In this document: positions 6,804-22,788 of the stretch, piece by piece
Layout: every line of letters starts with the position of its first letter
Numbering within the stretch: position 1 is the stretch's first letter
Source: Streptomyces sp. NBC_00178
GTDB lineage: Bacteria > Actinomycetota > Actinomycetes > Streptomycetales > Streptomycetaceae
Assembly (NCBI RefSeq): GCF_036206005.1
Contig: NZ_CP108143.1
Location: forward strand, 3,610,001-3,674,000
Length of the DNA: 64,000 nt
Direction of reading: 5' to 3'
Position numbers and translations under genes: made by a program
Notes under the pieces: generated by a model
What the model was told of the DNA's origin: nothing
The model's database searches: none
Seen by the model: the letters and a program-made list of their open reading frames with translations, nothing else

Positions 6804-8507
6804 TCAGTGGCCCCGGCTCCGGGACACGAGCACGGCGATGTCGTCCTCCGCCGCGTCCGCGAACCGGTCCACGACCTCGTCCAGCAGGTCCTCCAGCCGT
6901 CCGCTGACCGGCATCGTGAGCCGGGAGAGCCGCTGGATGGAGACGTCGATGTCCTCGCCCCGGCGTTCCACGAGGCCGTCGGTGTACATGAAGAGCACCG
7001 TCCCCGGACCGCACGGCATGACCGCGGTCCTGTACCCGCCCATGCCCGTACCCAGCGGCGGCCCCACGGGTACACGTGCCACGCGCGCCCGGGGCTCCCC
7101 GGGGTCGATGAAGACGGGCGGCGGATGTCCGGCGCTGGCCACCTCGCAGATCCCCCGGCGCCGGTCGACGACCACCACCAGACAGGTCGCCGCCCGGTCC
7201 AGACCGGACTGTTCGACCGCCTTGTCGAGCCGTTCGAGGATGCGGTGGGGTGGCTGGTCGTCGTCGGCCATGATCCGCAGCATCGAGCGGTAGTTGCTCA
7301 TGGCGACGGCTGCCTCCACGCCGTGGCCCATGACGTCGCCCATCACCTTGAGGTGGCGTCCCCCTTGCAGCGGGATGGCGTCGTACCAGTCCCCGCCGAC
7401 CACCGCGCCGGCGCCGGCGGGCAGGTAGAGGGAGGCGATCTCGATGCCGTGGCCCGGCCCCCGCGGCTCGGACAGCAGGGACCGCTGGAGCTCCCGGGCG
7501 ACGTGGTGCTCGTGTGTGTAGCGATACGCGTGGTCCACGTCCACGGCGGCGCGGCCCGCCAGGGTCCGGGCGACGACGACGTCCAGCCCCTCGGTGAAGG
7601 GCGGCGAATCGCCCGCCCGCAGGAGGCTGAGTGCCCCGAGCGGGCGTCCGCGCGCCGTGAGCGGCACGACGACCGCGGAGTGCAGACCGATGGCCCGGTA
7701 GGCGGCGAACCGCTCCGGGGTGAGCAGCGAGCGGATGAACCGCTCGTCGCCCGCCAGGTTCTCGATGACCGGCTGGTCGGCCGCCAGGCAGCGGGGGACG
7801 GCGGTGCCCTCCTGGTACTCGACGTCCTCCCCCGCTCCGCCGAAACGGTCGACCAGGTCGGCGAGTTCGGGGACCGCGGCCACCCCGGCCCGCCGCAGCC
7901 GCAGCACCCCGGGCGGTGGCTCGCGCCGCGGGTGGCCGTCCTCGACGGGCACCGTCTCGACCACGGCGACGTCGGCCATGACCGGCACCACGAACTCGGC
8001 GAGTTCCTGGCACGTCGCCTGCACGTCGAGTGTCGTGCCGATGCTGACGGCGGCGGTGTCCAGAAGGGTCAGATAACTGCGCGCGCGCTCCAGCTCCTCG
8101 TGCTGGGTGCTGGTGGCCGTGATCTCCTGGGCGACGGCGACCAGGCCCCGGACCCGCCCGTCCTGTTCGAAGCGGTGGCAGGCGACCCGCCAGTACCTGC
8201 ACGGCGCGTCGAAGTCCGCCCAGGTGCGCCCGCTGGTGGTGAACTCGCGGGACCGTCCGTCGGCCAGCACCTGGGCCATGAGGTCGGTCCGCCCGTCGAC
8301 CTCGGGCAGTACCTCGGCCGGCGTCCTGCCCAGGTGCGCGGCGGCCGGCACGCCGTTGACCCGTTCGAGTGCGGCGTTCACGTAGACGTAGCGCAGCGCG
8401 GTGTCGAACACCGCCACCCCGGCCGGGCTGCCTCCGACGAGCCCGGCGAGCCCGGCCGGCGCTGTCGCGTCGGGGGGCGGCGGGTCGGCGTGCTCTTCGG
8501 CCTGCAA
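6804..8507 (-). CDS. PAS-GAF-SpoIIE (PP2C) phosphatase
   Basis: The 567-residue protein has a PAS domain (about 22-135, GVAVFDTALRYVYVNAALERVNG), a GAF-like sensor (about 140-315) and a C-terminal SpoIIE/PP2C phosphatase (about 335-560). Phosphatase metal-binding motifs are visible in VVGGDWYDAI, VMGDVMGHGVEAA, MYTDGLVERR and a final EDDIAVLV. Such proteins dephosphorylate anti-sigma-factor antagonists and so release stress sigma factors. The start is TTG at 8,507 with TGGAGG six bases ahead. No membrane segment is seen, so it should sense a cytoplasmic ligand or redox signal. A second SpoIIE phosphatase lies at 34,251. Confidence 0.92.
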   Translation of the reverse strand: MQAEEHADPPPPDATAPAGLAGLVGGSPAGVAVFDTALRYVYVNAALERVNGVPAAAHLGRTPAEVLPEVDGRTDLMAQVLADGRSREFTTSGRTWADFDAPCRYWRVACHRFEQDGRVRGLVAVAQEITATSTQHEELERARSYLTLLDTAAVSIGTTLDVQATCQELAEFVVPVMADVAVVETVPVEDGHPRREPPPGVLRLRRAGVAAVPELADLVDRFGGAGEDVEYQEGTAVPRCLAADQPVIENLAGDERFIRSLLTPERFAAYRAIGLHSAVVVPLTARGRPLGALSLLRAGDSPPFTEGLDVVVARTLAGRAAVDVDHAYRYTHEHHVARELQRSLLSEPRGPGHGIEIASLYLPAGAGAVVGGDWYDAIPLQGGRHLKVMGDVMGHGVEAAVAMSNYRSMLRIMADDDQPPHRILERLDKAVEQSGLDRAATCLVVVVDRRRGICEVASAGHPPPVFIDPGEPRARVARVPVGPPLGTGMGGYRTAVMPCGPGTVLFMYTDGLVERRGEDIDVSIQRLSRLTMPVSGRLEDLLDEVVDRFADAAEDDIAVLVSRSRGH

Positions 8508-8582
8508 CGGAGCCTCCAGACGGATCGTGGCCCGGCGGGTGCGGGGCCGTCGGCCCTCACGGGCGCTCCGGCACCCGGCTCC

Positions 8583-9326
8583 TCATCGTCTGCCGCCGCG
8601 CGCCGCCCCGCATCTCCGTGGCAGCGGCGCACCGGCGTCCAGCCGGTCCAGCGACAGGGTGCCCTCCGAGACGGCGGCCCCGGGAGGCAGCTCCAGGGCC
8701 GCCTCGACCCGCTCGGGTACCGGGGCCAGGCCCAGGAGACCGCTCACGAGCAGTCCGGCGAGGTGGTGCCAGGCCGGGGCCCGGCGGATCATCGCGTGGT
8801 CGCTGCCGGGGATCGTCACCAGGCAGGTGCGGGCGCCCGCACGGCGGGCCCTCGCCGTGAGCGACTGGGACGCCAGGGGGCTGGTCACCCGGTCCCGGGT
8901 GCTGTGCAGCAGCACGACGTCCCGGCCCGCCAGCTGGGTCACCGGGTCGCCCGGCGGGCACCAGGGGGCGAGGCCGACCACCGAGCGGACCAGGGGGTGG
9001 CCGGCCGCGTGCAGGGCTGCACGGGCGCCCATCGAGTGGCCGAGGAGGACGACGGGGATGTCACCCGCCTCGCGACGGAGGTCGTCCAGGACGCGCACGG
9101 CGTCGTGCAGGGGGTCCTTCCGGGCGCCGTTCCAGCCCCGGTGCGTGTAGCGCACGCGCTGCACCCGGACCCCGCGGTCGCCGCGGACCGCGTGCGCCAC
9201 CGCGCGCGATATCGGCAGCATGCGCAGACCGGGCAGGTTCAGAGCCCCCGGCGCGGGTGCGGCCAGGCCGGTCTCGTAACCGCCGTGGAGGATGAGCACC
9301 GCTGCCGAGGGCGGTCGTTCGGCCAC
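8583..9326 (-). CDS. Alpha/beta hydrolase fold protein
   Basis: The 247-residue protein opens with SAAVLILHGGYE, the first strand and oxyanion HG motif. It carries the nucleophile elbow VLLGHSMGAR, a putative acid in LLHSTRDRVTS and a putative base in IPGSDHAMIRR, so Ser-Asp-His is intact. It has no signal peptide. The GTG at 9,326 is chosen because AGGAGGT lies five bases upstream and the reading begins just before the first strand. The substrate is unknown; the size and spacing fit a dienelactone-hydrolase or lysophospholipase-like esterase. It diverges from the peroxiredoxin gene. Confidence 0.82.
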   Translation of the reverse strand: MAERPPSAAVLILHGGYETGLAAPAPGALNLPGLRMLPISRAVAHAVRGDRGVRVQRVRYTHRGWNGARKDPLHDAVRVLDDLRREAGDIPVVLLGHSMGARAALHAAGHPLVRSVVGLAPWCPPGDPVTQLAGRDVVLLHSTRDRVTSPLASQSLTARARRAGARTCLVTIPGSDHAMIRRAPAWHHLAGLLVSGLLGLAPVPERVEAALELPPGAAVSEGTLSLDRLDAGAPLPRRCGAARGGRR

Positions 9327-9486
9327 CTGTACCTCCTGGGCGGGTGCGGGGCCGGCACCCCGCGTTCTCCCTGTATTCGGTGCCGGACGGCCCGCGGATG
9401 GGTCGGACGTGTCGATGCGGGGGAAGTGCCGTTCACTGTACGAGGCATGGACCCCGTCCCGTACACCGACACAAGGAGCCTCCGAC

Positions 9487-9972
9487 ATGGCGTCAGGACC
9501 CCGAACCGGCCAGCAGGCACCCGACTTCACCCTCCCGGGCGGGGTGCTCACCGAGGGCGCCTTCGCCCGGTCCGACTACACGCTCTCCACCGCCCGCGGG
9601 CGGGCCGTCGTGCTCGCCTTCTACCCCGGTGACAACACGGCCGTCTGCACGAAGCAGCTGTGCTCGTACTCCTCGGGCTTCGAGACCTTCGAGGGACTCG
9701 ACGCGGAGGTCTGGGGAATCAGTCCACAGGGTGTGGACAGCCACGAGCACTTCGCCCGCGGTCACGGCCTGCGCATGCCGCTGCTGGCCGACGAGGCGCG
9801 GGAGACGGCCCGGGCGTACGGAGTCGCGGCGCCCGGCATCGGGGTGCGCCGTTCCGTCTTCCTGATCGGCCCGGACGGGGTGCTGAGGTGGAAGCACGTC
9901 GCCCTGCTCGGTGCCACGTTCCAGTCGATGGACACCCTCGCCGGGCAGCTTTCCGGCATCGCAACTCCCTGA
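9487..9972 (+). CDS. Peroxiredoxin (BCP/AhpC-TSA family)
   Basis: The 161-residue thioredoxin-fold peroxidase reduces hydrogen peroxide and organic peroxides. The peroxidatic Cys lies in FYPGDNTAVCTKQLC, with a second Cys five residues later, the spacing of atypical two-Cys bacterioferritin-comigratory proteins. The N-terminal APDFTLPGG motif is also typical. AAGGAG stands nine bases before the ATG at 9,487. The electron donor is probably thioredoxin or mycoredoxin, by family. It is transcribed away from the hydrolase gene and is followed by membrane genes. Confidence 0.93.
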   Translation: MASGPRTGQQAPDFTLPGGVLTEGAFARSDYTLSTARGRAVVLAFYPGDNTAVCTKQLCSYSSGFETFEGLDAEVWGISPQGVDSHEHFARGHGLRMPLLADEARETARAYGVAAPGIGVRRSVFLIGPDGVLRWKHVALLGATFQSMDTLAGQLSGIATP

Positions 9973-10077
9973 AGACTGCCGGACTCCGGCAGTATCCCCG
10001 CAGGGTCCGGCATGGGACCATTCAGGCAGTTCGACGGAAACGTTTCGGGGGAACAGCGACACCGGGGGAGTGATCGC

Positions 10078-10599
10078 TTGACCGTTTTTCTCGGTCTCGG
10101 CATTGCGGGAATCGCGCTTCTGACCCTGTCCCTGATCTTCGACGGGATCCTCGAAGGGCTCCTCGGTGATGCCTTGGGCGGCCTGCTCAACGGCTTCTTC
10201 GACGGCCTGCTCTCGCTGCCCGTCATCGCCGGATTCCTCTCGATGCTCGGCTTCGGCGGTGCGATCGTGCTCGGCACGACCGGTGCCGGGATACCGGTGG
10301 CTCTCGCCGCGGGCGCCGGTGCCGGGCTCGTCGCGGCCTGGCTGACCTGGAAGTTCAGCCAGGCCCTGATGAGGGATCAGACCACCGCCACGCCACGGGG
10401 CGACGATCTCATCGGCACCTCGGGGTCGGTGGTCACACCGATCCCGGCCGACGGCTACGGCGAAGTGCTGCTGCGACTCGCGGGCCAGACCGTCAAGTTC
10501 TCCGCGAAGAGCGCCGTGCCGGTCGAACGCGGCGCCGAGATCTGGGTGGAGGCCACACTCTCCACCACCTCGGTCACCGTGCGCCCCGTCGAGCGCTGA
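10078..10599 (+). CDS. NfeD-like membrane protein
   Basis: The 173-residue protein has two or three membrane segments (about 3-22, 45-65 and 75-98) and a C-terminal OB-fold-like domain (about 112-172) with the pattern DLIGTSGSVVTPIPADGYGEVLL. That layout matches short NfeD proteins. NfeD proteins pair with SPFH/flotillin proteins in membrane microdomains, and a flotillin gene follows 82 bases downstream. I favour the TTG at 10,078, eight bases after GGGGGAG; an in-frame ATG at 10,012 would add 22 mostly polar residues. Only the OB-fold half resembles the longer protease-type NfeD, so no proteolysis is expected. Confidence 0.78.
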   Translation: MTVFLGLGIAGIALLTLSLIFDGILEGLLGDALGGLLNGFFDGLLSLPVIAGFLSMLGFGGAIVLGTTGAGIPVALAAGAGAGLVAAWLTWKFSQALMRDQTTATPRGDDLIGTSGSVVTPIPADGYGEVLLRLAGQTVKFSAKSAVPVERGAEIWVEATLSTTSVTVRPVER

Positions 10600-10681
10600 C
10601 ACCACCGAGCGAGCCCGCCAGTCCGGAACTCGCGCAACCGAACAACTGCCGTCCCGTCGGGGGGCAGGGGGGACACCTTTC

Positions 10682-12121
10682 ATGAGTCCAGTACTGATCG
10701 CCATCGTCGGCGTCGTCGTCCTAGTCGTGCTCCTGGCCCTCGCCGTGATCACCCGGTACAAGGTCGCGGGCCCGAGCCAGGCCTTCATCATCACCGGGCG
10801 GCGCGGCAAGAAGTCCACCGATCCGGTGACCGGCCGCACCAGCATCGACAACAGCGGCCAGAAGGTCGTCGTGGGCGGCGGAGTCTTCGTCGTGCCGTTC
10901 GTCCAGCAGAAGTTCACGCTCGACCTCTCCAGCCGGCACATCCCCGTCGCCGTACGGGGCGCCGTCACGCTGCGCGGCGTGAAGTCCAACCTCGAAGGCG
11001 TCGCGATCGTCAAGGTCGGCGGCAGCGAGGACGCGATCCGGGCCGCGGCCCAGCGCTTCCTCCAGCAGCAGAACGGCATCGTCGGCTTCACCCAGGAGGT
11101 GCTGTCCGGCGCGCTGCGGGCCATCGTCGGCCGTATGTCCGTCGAGGACATCATCCGCGACCGTGCCGCGTTCGCCGGGCAGGTCGCCGAGGAGGCCGAG
11201 GCCAGCCTCTCCGGTCAGGGCCTCATCCTGGACGCCTTCCAGATCCAGGACATCACCACCGAGGGCTCCTACCTGGAGGACCTCGGCCGCCCGGAGGCCG
11301 CGCGCGCCAAGCAGGAGGCCGACATCGCCGAGGCCATCGCCCGGCGGGCGTCCGAGCAGGCCCGGCTGAAGGCGGCCGAGGAGATCGCCATCGCCGAGCG
11401 GACGTTCTACCTGAAGCAGGCCGAGATCAAGGCCGAGACCGAGGCCGCGGCGGCCAAGGCCAACGCGGCGGGTCCGCTCGCCGAGGCCGCCCGCCAGCAG
11501 GAGGTGCTCGCGGAGCAGGAGAAGGTCGCCGAGCGCCAGGCGGCCCTGACCGACCGCGAACTCGACACCAAGGTCCGCAAGCCCGCCGACGCGGCCCGCT
11601 ACCGCGCGGAGCAGGAGGCCGAGGCCCGCCGCATCGCACAGGTCAAGGAGGCCGAGGCCGACGCGGAGCGGTCCCGCCTGACCGGTCAGGGCGAGAAGCT
11701 GCACCGCTCGGCGCTCGCCGACGCCGTGCGCATCGAGGGCGAGTCCGAGGCCGCCGCCATCGCGGCGAAGGGTGCCGCCGAGGCCGAGGCCATGCAGAAG
11801 AAGGCTGACGCCTTCAAACAGTACGGGGACGCGGCCGTCCTGCAGATGCTGGTCGAGGTGCTCCCCCAGGTCGTCGCCAAGGCGGCCGAGCCGCTCAGCG
11901 CGATCGACAAGATGACCGTCATCTCGACGGACGGCGCCAGTCAGCTGTCCCGCACGGTCACCGACAACGTCGCGCAGGGGATCGAGCTCCTCAACTCCAC
12001 CACGGGTGTGGACCTGGGCGCGCTGCTGAAGAACCTCCAGGCCAAGGCCGCGGGCACCGCTCCACTTGCCGCGGTCCCGGCGCCCTCGGCCAACGGCGAG
12101 AAGATCGAGATCAAGGACTGA
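10682..12121 (+). CDS. Flotillin-like SPFH domain protein
   Basis: The 479-residue protein begins with one hydrophobic anchor (about 4-24), then an SPFH/band-7 domain (about 25-200, including GGGVFVVPFVQQKFTLDLSSRHIPV). A long Ala/Glu-rich coiled coil (about 205-390) follows, and a C-terminal assembly domain after that. This is flotillin architecture (YuaG/FloT, YqiK). Flotillins oligomerise on the inner face of the membrane and organise fluid microdomains that affect signalling and cell-wall enzymes. The ATG follows GGGGGGA. The partner NfeD-like gene is directly upstream, the arrangement known for many bacterial flotillins, and the pair probably forms an operon. Confidence 0.93.
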   Translation: MSPVLIAIVGVVVLVVLLALAVITRYKVAGPSQAFIITGRRGKKSTDPVTGRTSIDNSGQKVVVGGGVFVVPFVQQKFTLDLSSRHIPVAVRGAVTLRGVKSNLEGVAIVKVGGSEDAIRAAAQRFLQQQNGIVGFTQEVLSGALRAIVGRMSVEDIIRDRAAFAGQVAEEAEASLSGQGLILDAFQIQDITTEGSYLEDLGRPEAARAKQEADIAEAIARRASEQARLKAAEEIAIAERTFYLKQAEIKAETEAAAAKANAAGPLAEAARQQEVLAEQEKVAERQAALTDRELDTKVRKPADAARYRAEQEAEARRIAQVKEAEADAERSRLTGQGEKLHRSALADAVRIEGESEAAAIAAKGAAEAEAMQKKADAFKQYGDAAVLQMLVEVLPQVVAKAAEPLSAIDKMTVISTDGASQLSRTVTDNVAQGIELLNSTTGVDLGALLKNLQAKAAGTAPLAAVPAPSANGEKIEIKD

Positions 12122-19566: not shown

Positions 19567-20625
19567 TCAGCCCGGCGTGCCCATGGCCTCGCGCACCTCG
19601 CGCAGGGTCGCGTCCGCCACGGCGTTCGCCCTCTCGTTGCCCGCGCGCAGTACCTCTCGTACGTACCCCATGTCCTGGGCGTACGCGGCCCGCCGGGCCC
19701 GGATCGGCGCCATGCGGGTGTTGACGGCCTCCGTCACGGTCCGCTTGAGGGCGGACGAGCCGCCGTCCCCGATCTCCTCGGCGACGTCGTACGGGTCGCG
19801 GTCGAGGCAGAGCGCGGCCAGCAGGACCAGGCTCGACACCCCGGGCCGTCTCTCCGGCTCGTAGGTGATGCGGCGTTCGGCATCGGTGGTGGCGCCCTTG
19901 ATCAGCCGGGCGGTCTCGTCGGCGGTCGCGCTCAGGGTGACGGAGTTGCCGCGGCTCTTGCTCATCTTGGTCGCGTCGGTGCCGAGTAGCAGGGGTGCGG
20001 CGGAGAGCAGCGCGTCGGGTTCGGGGAAGACGTGGCCGTACCGCTCGTTGAAGCGCCGGGCGATCGTGCGGGTGATCTCCAGGTGCGGCAGCTGGTCCTG
20101 GCCGACGGGCACGAGGTTGCCCTTGCAGAACAGGATGTCGGCGGCCTGATGCACCGGGTAGGTGTACATGAGCCCGCTGACGGCGGCCTGCCGGGAGTGC
20201 GCGATCTCGTCCTTCACGGTGGGGTTGCGGCCGAGTTCCGCGACGGAGACGAGGGAGAGGAACGGCAGCATCAGCTGGTTGAGCGCCGGGACGGCGCTGT
20301 GGCTGAAGACCGTGCTGCGGGCGGGGTCGATCCCGATGGCGAGGTGGTCCAGGAGCAGCCCCTCGACGTGCTCGGTGAGCCGGTCGGCGACGTCCCGGTC
20401 GGTGAGGACCTGGTAGTCGGCGACGAGGACGAAGACGTCCACGCCGAGGTCCTGGAGCCGTACCCGGTTCTGGAGGGTGCCGAAGTAGTGCCCGAGGTGC
20501 AGGGCCCCGGTGGGCCGGTCCCCGGTGAGGACGCGGAACGCGCCGGGGTCCCGGGCGAGCCGCTGTTCCAGCTCTGCGCTGCGGCGCGCGGCCGGGGCCG
20601 CGGGCAGGTCGGTGGTGATGGTCAC
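19567..20625 (-). CDS. trpS: Tryptophanyl-tRNA synthetase, auxiliary type
   Basis: The 352-residue class I synthetase charges tRNA-Trp. The first signature is TGALHLGHYFG and the second KMSKSRGN. The first reads GDRPTGALHLGH rather than the GIQPTAGSFHLGN that I recall for the housekeeping actinomycete enzyme, so it belongs to the auxiliary group that includes the indolmycin-resistant TrpRS1 of S. coelicolor. The GTG at 20,625 follows GAGGAG and opens MTITTDLPAA, a short extension before the catalytic core. Upstream is a complete Trp-codon attenuator, matching the reported ribosome-mediated control of trpRS1. Resistance is inferred, not read from a specific residue. Confidence 0.93.
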   Translation of the reverse strand: MTITTDLPAAPAARRSAELEQRLARDPGAFRVLTGDRPTGALHLGHYFGTLQNRVRLQDLGVDVFVLVADYQVLTDRDVADRLTEHVEGLLLDHLAIGIDPARSTVFSHSAVPALNQLMLPFLSLVSVAELGRNPTVKDEIAHSRQAAVSGLMYTYPVHQAADILFCKGNLVPVGQDQLPHLEITRTIARRFNERYGHVFPEPDALLSAAPLLLGTDATKMSKSRGNSVTLSATADETARLIKGATTDAERRITYEPERRPGVSSLVLLAALCLDRDPYDVAEEIGDGGSSALKRTVTEAVNTRMAPIRARRAAYAQDMGYVREVLRAGNERANAVADATLREVREAMGTPG

Positions 20626-20692
20626 GGGGGTTCTCCTCGCCGGTGGTGTACGCGTGGAGGACGGCCCGTCGCGGAGCGGTGGGGCAGGGGAA

Positions 20693-20719
20693 AGGGCCGT
20701 CCGTGTGTCGAACGGCCCT
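20693..20719 (-). terminator. Attenuator terminator of trpS
   Basis: AGGGCCGT and ACGGCCCT form an 8-bp stem with an 11-base loop. In the leftward transcript it is followed by UU and a run of C. It is the terminator arm pair of the attenuator. Confidence 0.8.
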
Positions 20720-20747
20720 GGTTCCGTGCTGGTGCAGGCGGCCGCTC

Positions 20748-20789
20748 CTAGGAGGAGCGCCACCAGGTGCGGCACGGTACGGAGGTCAT
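20748..20789 (-). CDS. Trp leader peptide MTSVPCRTWWRSS
   Basis: A 13-codon frame reads ATG to TAG with adjacent UGG codons at positions 9 and 10. It has no ribosome binding site; a -10-like TACAGT ends six bases before the ATG, so the transcript may begin at the A of ATG. Tandem Trp codons in a tiny leader ahead of a Trp-charging enzyme, with the correct hairpins, make chance unlikely. Confidence 0.85.
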   Translation of the reverse strand: MTSVPCRTWWRSS

Positions 20790-20984
20790 GGCCCGACTGT
20801 AGCCCGGCCCGGCGCCGTCCCGCTCGCTCCGGCGGCCCGGCGGGGCCGCGCCGCGCGGAGCGACCGCCTCCCGGAGTCCCGGGGCGGGACCCGGTGTGAG
20901 GGCGCCGGTGGTGCGTCGCGGGGTGGACCGCGAAGAGGCCGGAATAGAGCAGGGGGGTGTCCCGTTGTAGGGTGTGTTCACATA

Positions 20985-20998
20985 GTTCAACGTTCAAC
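20985..20998 (+). promoter_or_regulatory. Putative operator, GTTCAACGTTCAAC
   Basis: The 14-base direct repeat ends 25 bases before the ATG of the luciferase-like gene. The reverse complement, GTTGAACGTTGAAC, matches 13 of 14 bases of a site before the pirin gene (38,532-38,545). A shared MarR-like or other redox regulator is inferred. Confidence 0.6.
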
Positions 20999-21022
20999 CA
21001 AAGATACTTGGAGGCGGGCGCC

Positions 21023-22123
21023 ATGCAGTTCGGGATCTTCACCGTCGGGGACGTCACCACCGACCCCACGACCGGTACGACGCCGAGCGAGAACGAGCGG
21101 ATCAAGGCGACCCTGGCGATCGCGCTCAAGGCCGAGGAGGTGGGCCTGGACGTCTTCGCCACGGGCGAGCACCACAACCCGCCCTTCGTCCCGTCCTCGC
21201 CGACCACCACGCTCGGCTACATCGCCGCCCGCACCGAGAAGCTGATCCTCTCCACGTCCACCACGCTGATCACCACCAACGACCCGGTGAAGATCGCGGA
21301 GGACTACGCCACGCTCCAGCACCTGGCGGACGGCCGCGTCGACCTGATGATGGGCCGCGGCAACACCGGACCGGTCTACCCCTGGTTCGGCAAGGACATC
21401 CGCCAGGGCATCCCGCTCGCGGTCGAGAACTACGCCCTCCTGCACAAGCTGTGGCGCGAGGACGTCGTCGACTGGGAAGGGAAGTTCCGCACCCCGCTGC
21501 AGTCCTTCACCTCGACCCCGCGCCCCCTGGACGGCGTCCCGCCCTTCGTCTGGCACGGCTCCATCCGCTCTCCGGAGATCGCCGAGCAGGCCGCCTACTA
21601 CGGCGACGGCTTCTTCCACAACAACATCTTCTGGCCCATGGAGCACACCAGGAAGATGGTCGACCTCTACCGGCGCCGGTACGCCCACTACGGGCACGGC
21701 ACCGCGGAGCAGGCCATCGTCGGCCTCGGCGGCCAGGTCTTCATGCGGAAGAACTCGCAGGACGCGGTGCGGGAGTTCCGCCCGTACTTCGACAACGCCC
21801 CGGTCTACGGCCACGGGCCCTCGCTGGAGGACTTCACCCAGCAGACACCGCTGACCGTCGGCTCCCCGCAGGAGGTCATCGAGCGGACCCTGTCCTTCCG
21901 TGAGGACGTCGGCGACTACCAGCGCCAGCTGTTCCTCATGGACCACGCGGGACTGCCGCTGAAGACGGTCCTGGAGCAGCTCGACATCCTGGGCGAGGAG
22001 GTCGTGCCCGTGCTGCGCAAGGAGTTCGCCCGCCTGCGCCCGGCCGGTGTGCCGGACGCCCCCGTCCACCCCGCGGTCGCCGCGGCCCGCGCCGCCGCCA
22101 CCGCCGACCCGAAGGAGCTCTGA
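21023..22123 (+). CDS. Luciferase-like flavin monooxygenase (CE1758 family)
   Basis: The 366-residue TIM-barrel protein belongs to the LLM class that uses reduced FMN and oxygen. It begins MQFGIFTVGDVTTDPTTG; VDLMMGRGNTGPVYPWFGKD and QEVIERTLSFREDVGDYQRQ are barrel elements I recognise from the CE1758-type group. The ATG at 21,023 has TTGGAGG 10 bases upstream; an earlier ATG would add a Cys-rich stretch unlike the family. A matching FMN reductase follows after 5 bases, so the two form a two-component system. The substrate is unknown. A putative operator shared with the pirin gene lies just upstream. Confidence 0.93.
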   Translation: MQFGIFTVGDVTTDPTTGTTPSENERIKATLAIALKAEEVGLDVFATGEHHNPPFVPSSPTTTLGYIAARTEKLILSTSTTLITTNDPVKIAEDYATLQHLADGRVDLMMGRGNTGPVYPWFGKDIRQGIPLAVENYALLHKLWREDVVDWEGKFRTPLQSFTSTPRPLDGVPPFVWHGSIRSPEIAEQAAYYGDGFFHNNIFWPMEHTRKMVDLYRRRYAHYGHGTAEQAIVGLGGQVFMRKNSQDAVREFRPYFDNAPVYGHGPSLEDFTQQTPLTVGSPQEVIERTLSFREDVGDYQRQLFLMDHAGLPLKTVLEQLDILGEEVVPVLRKEFARLRPAGVPDAPVHPAVAAARAAATADPKEL

Positions 22124-22128
22124 GGACC

Positions 22129-22788
22129 GTGCTCGCCACCGCCCCCCTGAAGATCGTCGCCGTCGCGGCCGGGCTCAGCAGCCCCTCGTCCACCCGGCTG
22201 CTGGCAGACCGGCTCGCGGAGTCCGCGCGCGAGCAGCTCGCGGCCGGCCAGGACCGGCGGGTCGAGGTCCAGGTCGTCGAACTGCGCGATCTCGCCGTCG
22301 ACATCGCCAACCACCTGGTCACCGGCTTCCCGCCGGCGGGCCTGAAGGCGGCGCTGGACGCGGTGACCGGGGCGGACGGCCTGATCGCCGTGTCGCCGGT
22401 GTTCACCGCCTCGTACAGCGGGCTGTTCAAGTCCTTCTTCGACCTGGTCGGGAACACCGAGCTGACCGGCAAGCCCGTCGTGATCGCGGCGACCGGCGGA
22501 ACGCCGCGGCACTCGCTGGTCCTGGAGCACGCGATGCGCCCGCTCTTCGCCTACCTGCGGGCGGTCGTCCTGCCGACGTCCGTGTACGCGGCGTCGGAGG
22601 ACTGGGGCTCGCAGGGCGACGAGTACACCGAGGGCCTGCCGTCCCGCATCCGGCGCGCGGGTGGCGAACTGGCCTCCGCCGTCACGGGGCACGCCGTCTC
22701 GGGCGCCCGCCGCGAGCCGACGCTCGACGACGGGGAGGACGCCCTGGTCCCGTTCGAGCAGCAGCTCGCCGCGCTGCGGACCGGCTGA
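22129..22788 (+). CDS. NAD(P)H:FMN reductase (CE1759 family)
   Basis: The 219-residue flavodoxin-fold protein supplies reduced FMN to its monooxygenase partner. The FMN loop reads GLSSPSSTRLLADRL and the second flavin contact VSPVFTASYSGLFKSFFDL. Start is GTG at 22,129, five bases after the monooxygenase stop, so the genes are coupled. The C-terminal 40 residues are variable. The pairing and family names are from memory of corynebacterial CE1758/CE1759; the physiological substrate of the pair is not known. Confidence 0.92.
   Translation: MLATAPLKIVAVAAGLSSPSSTRLLADRLAESAREQLAAGQDRRVEVQVVELRDLAVDIANHLVTGFPPAGLKAALDAVTGADGLIAVSPVFTASYSGLFKSFFDLVGNTELTGKPVVIAATGGTPRHSLVLEHAMRPLFAYLRAVVLPTSVYAASEDWGSQGDEYTEGLPSRIRRAGGELASAVTGHAVSGARREPTLDDGEDALVPFEQQLAALRTG

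Follow-up and report, generated by a model that had tools for sequence, protein, structure and literature searches.

A candidate Trp-codon attenuator upstream of an auxiliary tryptophanyl-tRNA synthetase gene and its conservation among actinobacteria

The genome in which this locus lies holds two tryptophanyl-tRNA synthetases (TrpRS), the auxiliary one being encoded by the trpS studied here, and the question is how this second gene is controlled. A preliminary description of the sequence had proposed ribosome-mediated attenuation sensing Trp-tRNA. Comparison with homologous loci supports this proposal and makes it very likely that the leader acts as a transcription attenuator of that type. This kind of system is already known, from candidates published in 2005 and from an experimental paper of 2010, as far as the accessible part of the latter tells. 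What is added here is its conservation over the whole clade of this trpS, a corrected set of hairpins, the separation of the gene from the one with an S. lividans-type leader, and an element close to the Shine-Dalgarno (SD) sequence.

Parts of the trpS leader

The window, i.e. the whole stretch of 64,000 nucleotides that was analysed, carries the attenuator and trpS on its minus strand, and all the parts are read at the positions previously given for them (Table 1). The leader is about 165 nt long and includes a conserved coding ORF, the announced 13-residue peptide with adjacent UGG codons. The Trp codons are covered by a hairpin (1:2) in which GGUGGC/GCCGCC is stacked on GCUCCU/AGGAGC, with one bulged G and the stop codon at the loop. 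The preliminary description had drawn this hairpin as CUGGUG (20766-20761) paired with CACCAG (20734-20729). These letters are complementary, but they can pair in only 4 of the 99 homologous leaders described below, and the conserved and minimum-energy form is GGUGGC-GCUCCU/AGGAGC-G-GCCGCC. The GCGGCC element that had been suggested to pair with the 5' arm of the terminator is found inside 20745-20740, within the longer GAGCGGCC. Since GAGCGGCC belongs to the 3' strand of 1:2 and also pairs with the 5' arm of the terminator, helices 1:2, 2:3 (antiterminator) and 3:4 (terminator) are mutually exclusive. The terminator itself is present as claimed, with GC-rich arms followed by UUU only (UUU CCCC).

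Table 1. Features of the trpS leader region (window coordinates)
Feature	Position	Strand	Basis
-10 box TACAGT, its end 6 bases 5' of the leader ATG	20796..20801	-	Predicted leaderless promoter
Leader peptide ORF MTSVPCRTWWRSS, 13 codons + UAG (ATG at 20789; UAG at 20750-20748)	20748..20789	-	Sequence; homologous leaders at 99 distinct loci
Adjacent regulatory codons UGG UGG	20760..20765	-	Sequence
1:2 hairpin over the Trp codons	20737..20764	-	Minimum-energy fold; compensated versions among homologues
2:3 antiterminator, GAGCGGCC (20747-20740) with GGCCGUUC (20717-20710)	20710..20747	-	Pairing over aligned homologues
3:4 intrinsic terminator, AGGGCCGUUCG/CGGACGGCCCU (arms 20719-20709 / 20703-20693)	20693..20719	-	11-bp stem in fold
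Element 5, GGGCCGUCCUCCACGC	20652..20667	-	Complementarity; conservation in relatives
Shine-Dalgarno sequence GAGGAG of trpS	20633..20638	-	Sequence; predicted paired
Auxiliary trpS, GTG start at 20625, 352 aa, SGR_3809 clade	19567..20625	-	TIGR00233; identity

One possibility is that these parts are a chance or decayed arrangement without function, as GC-rich sequence folds easily: dinucleotide shuffles of the leader average -65.5 kcal/mol. The leader itself reaches -76.9 kcal/mol (z = -2.96) and is more stable than all 200 shuffles. When the window was scanned for the full grammar (a short ORF with two adjacent Trp codons, a codon-covering helix, an antiterminator and a terminator), exactly one site was found, namely the trpS leader. 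The same grammar occurs 0.025 times per 64 kb of Markov-1 random sequence, and its combination with a -10 box in none of 40 random sequences. Together with this control, the cross-genus conservation and the compensatory changes reported in the next section leave a chance origin practically no credibility; the comparison already refutes it.

A covariance model built from the leader alignment recovers the trpS leader as the sole strong match in the 7.4-Mb genome (80.6 bits, E = 7e-15). The next-best match scores 29.8 bits and has no WW leader, and no match of this kind lies 5' of the housekeeping trpS (locus L002 and Streptomyces housekeeping loci). Searched against Rfam, the window gives no match at gathering score and the leader gives only chance hits (E up to 10); the enteric Trp_leader model (RF00513) does not match the leader either. 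These results bear on another explanation, in which the leader would be a tRNA-binding T-box or would bind some other ligand. Many synthetase genes are regulated by T-boxes, and in Actinobacteria ileS is preceded by unusual members of this class (PMC1262725). Nevertheless, the T-box covariance model is matched neither in the window nor in the leader, and the short leader with its conserved coding ORF also argues against such a reading; a T-box or known riboswitch was thus rejected as extremely improbable.

Conservation of the leader and the proposed mechanism

Homologous trpS genes were collected at 80 loci from named genomes and in 150 Streptomyces genomes, 28 of which carry a trpS of this clade at a minimum identity of 74%; all 28 also have a second TrpRS-like match. 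Nearly all the homologous genes are preceded by a Trp leader. After removal of duplicates, 99 distinct leaders remain, from Streptomyces, Kitasatospora, Actinomadura, Kutzneria, Paeniglutamicibacter and others, and thus from several actinobacterial families. The leader peptides end in WWRSx or WWPS with few exceptions; the Trp codons are adjacent in 92 of the 99, the other seven having a single one. The three helices are all possible in 94 of 99 leaders. The TACAGT box noticed earlier at six bases from the ATG has its counterpart in a TANNNT box 6 or 7 bases 5' of the leader start codon in every one of the 97 homologues with enough upstream sequence. Because of this fixed distance, the leader ATG is the predicted start of transcription, which would give a leaderless transcript; a start downstream of the leader peptide, which had been named as a refutation of the attenuator, is not expected.

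Covariation of the hairpins among homologues had been proposed as a test, and compensatory changes were indeed found. Helix pairing was scored on an alignment of 75 sequences, some of them related to each other, and the counted pairs should not be read as independent events. The antiterminator is paired in 98.5% of cells, against 26-55% when one strand is slid by 1-3 columns, and columns 30-79 show a GC/AU double change; its complementarity is therefore specific to the register and covarying. The terminator is paired in 99.3% of cells and the outer helix of 1:2 in 89%. The inner helix of 1:2 shifts register between leader types and was counted per sequence: it occurs in five compensated versions (GCUCC/GGAGC, CGUC/GACG, GCCUC/GAGGC, GUUCC/GGAAC and GUCCC/GGGAC), all of them complementary.

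In the proposed mechanism, RNA polymerase would begin transcription at the leader ATG or very close to it, and a ribosome would load onto the leaderless message immediately. With ample Trp-tRNA, the ribosome would pass the two UGG codons and reach the UAG at the loop of 1:2, where it would cover GAGCGGCC, so that terminator 3:4 would form and transcription would end about 100 nt in. If Trp-tRNA ran short because the cell is starved or because an inhibitor of TrpRS (e.g. indolmycin) is present, the ribosome would stall on UGG UGG and block 1:2. In that case, GAGCGGCC would pair with GGCCGUUC before the 3' arm of the terminator is made, and the polymerase would read into trpS. In equilibrium folding the terminator remains the preferred form even when a stalled ribosome is modelled, which implies that antitermination would have to be kinetic, the antiterminator being made first. 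In other attenuators too, the antiterminator wins by being made first. The leader would then amount to a ready-made sensor of uncharged tRNA-Trp.

Some features speak against attenuation. The U-tract is weak, with three U behind the 11-bp stem here and a mean of 4.2 T in the 8 nt after the terminator across homologues; the seven leaders with a single Trp codon and the three Streptomyces copies of this trpS from which the attenuator is absent (L100, L103 and L106; the model matches the other 25 of 28) point in the same direction. The weak U-tract could be taken to mean that the leader ORF is a mere upstream ORF, or a device coupling transcription and translation, and that no termination is involved. 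Yet a stem of at least 8 bp is kept in 98 of 99 homologues, and the antiterminator retains its complementarity to the 5' arm of this stem; both make sense only if 3:4 matters, which makes a leader of this sort very unlikely and attenuation the favored interpretation.

Some further loci deserve mention. At one of the three Streptomyces loci that lack the attenuator (L153 of genome G012, 7356-11134), a TrpRS of this clade is encoded 5' of a cyclodipeptide synthase (PF16715) and a cytochrome P450. This neighbourhood suggests a natural product cluster that consumes Trp-tRNA, and a constitutive or cluster-controlled expression of its trpS is plausible. At locus L096 (885-955, minus strand), part of the terminator region is present as an inverted copy that scores 38.6 bits with the model; it lacks a Trp leader and lies near the promoter of the divergent gene. 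On one contig of Streptomyces sp. ERV7, this trpS occurs twice within about 8 kb, the two copies having identical leaders (L029 and L030). The phylum-wide model search also gave weak matches, among them leaders before chorismate-binding genes (trpE-like, as judged by eye) at L124, L126 and L134. These leaders of related actinobacteria fit the already known trp-operon attenuators; the remaining matches mostly look like chance.

The auxiliary synthetase and known attenuators

The trpS product is a TrpRS by NCBIfam TIGR00233 (231.8 bits over the cut-off), and its nearest relative among solved structures is the Deinococcus TrpRS II. On the opposite strand, the divergent neighbours at 20957-22788 (+) encode a luciferase-like monooxygenase (PF00296) and an NADPH-dependent FMN reductase (PF03358). 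Three groups of TrpRS were compared: the housekeeping enzymes, a group with an S. lividans-like leader (L123) and the auxiliary clade with S. griseus. The auxiliary TrpRS is 84-87% identical to the S. griseus homologue L009 (87% in the homologue collection) and about 35% identical to the housekeeping and L123 groups alike. L009 is preceded by a leader of this kind too, MTSVPCRNWWRSS. In the auxiliary enzyme, GDRPTG and ADYQVLT stand in place of the motifs GIQPT and DLHAIT of the housekeeping one, at positions that we take to be those of the indolmycin contacts Gln9 and His43 of the Bacillus enzyme. These differences in the active site are only suggestive of indolmycin resistance; the auxiliary TrpRS is probably antibiotic-resistant. 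Since its motifs differ from those of the housekeeping enzyme, its likely purpose would be to restore Trp-tRNA while the housekeeping enzyme is inhibited. Of the two TrpRS genes of S. griseus, SGR_3809 is the indolmycin-resistant one (PMC6804068, reviewing Vecchione and Sello 2009), and a published S. griseus data set lists 79 premature transcription units (PMC8914203); from the species and the presence of these two genes, L009 would be the SGR_3809 orthologue, which places SGR_3809 in the clade of this trpS.

Vecchione and Sello (2010, J Bacteriol 192:3565, cited in PMC4787780) reported that an auxiliary trpRS gene conferring antibiotic resistance is under ribosome-mediated attenuation, and the S. 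lividans trpL2-trpS leader, leaderless and with two hairpins, was identified from RNA-seq (PMC8079986). The present leader resembles the S. lividans one and, to the extent covered by the accessible part of the 2010 paper, the one reported there: a short leaderless Trp leader with alternative hairpins precedes a second trpS. Nevertheless, the S. lividans leader, MMTRTCTQLWRAA, contains a single Trp codon, unlike the UGG UGG found here, and lacks a U-rich stretch. A near-identical leader of the S. lividans type, MTTRTCTQLWWPA, precedes the L123 gene, whose TrpRS is only distantly related to the auxiliary one (see above). As the TrpRS with this type of leader belongs to a different clade and has its own leader, the S. 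coelicolor precedent cited in the preliminary description probably concerns a paralogue and not a gene of the SGR_3809 clade. Two distantly related clades of auxiliary TrpRS would thus both use such a switch.

Candidate attenuators were earlier described for the Streptomyces and Corynebacterium trp operons and for S. avermitilis trpS2 (Seliverstov 2005, PMC1262725). The leader shares with them tandem UGG codons, a GC-rich terminator and a GGCC / GC / GGCC triple common to both hairpins; that study predates most genomes and includes only one trpS case. The enteric trp operon attenuator (RF00513) follows the same three-helix logic with tandem Trp codons. Unlike it, the present leader has a predicted leaderless start and would control a synthetase instead of a biosynthetic operon. 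If the proposed control holds, a probably antibiotic-resistant spare synthetase answers to Trp-tRNA in many actinomycetes through a single conserved RNA absent from Rfam.

An element close to the Shine-Dalgarno sequence

Between the terminator and trpS lies element 5. Its first nine bases are the exact complement of GGACGGCCC in the 3' arm of the terminator, a match that exceeds nearly all shuffles, and its CUCCACGC complements the SD region GCGAGGAG. Among the 33 relatives with MTS- or MNS-type leaders, the core GGGCCGUCC / GGGCCGTCC is intact in 31. In these relatives the element lies 18-22 bases 5' of the SD and 26-71 bases 3' of the terminator, with a poorly conserved spacer. The conservation of the element is solid, and a literature search found no report of GGGCCGUCC.

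This element raises the possibility that the switch has two tiers, attenuation being combined with translational control of the read-through message. Formation of 2:3 would free GGACGGCCC, which would pair with GGGCCGUCC and so alter a conserved hairpin in which CUCC pairs with the SD. The fixed distance to the SD beside a diverging spacer to the terminator is in line with this, as is the perfect complementarity of GGGCCGUCC to the 3' arm but not to region 2, where an A-C mismatch occurs. When the antiterminator is forced, the 3' arm is predicted to pair with element 5 in most species (mean 0.65-0.74), a pairing that would stabilise the antiterminated fold by about 10 kcal/mol. The SD is predicted to be paired in 29 relatives, with a mean accessibility of about 0.18. 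Nevertheless, this value hardly rises in the antiterminated state (0.18 to 0.24), the 3' arm is invariant in the clade and so offers no covariation to read, and the element is missing from the Actinomadura/Kitasatospora (WWPS) type. Such a two-tier switch seems rather unlikely beside plain attenuation. That element 5 captures the 3' arm after antitermination, so that one folding event would gate both transcription and translation of trpS, is a shade more doubtful still. This conserved element would make it easy to test whether attenuators of this group control translation as well.

Leaders of the WWPS type often have instead a copy of GGACGGCC, from the terminator 3' arm, near the SD (e.g. L038, L053, L072 and L076). 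At L072 and L076, this copy can form a second terminator-like hairpin between the terminator and the SD.
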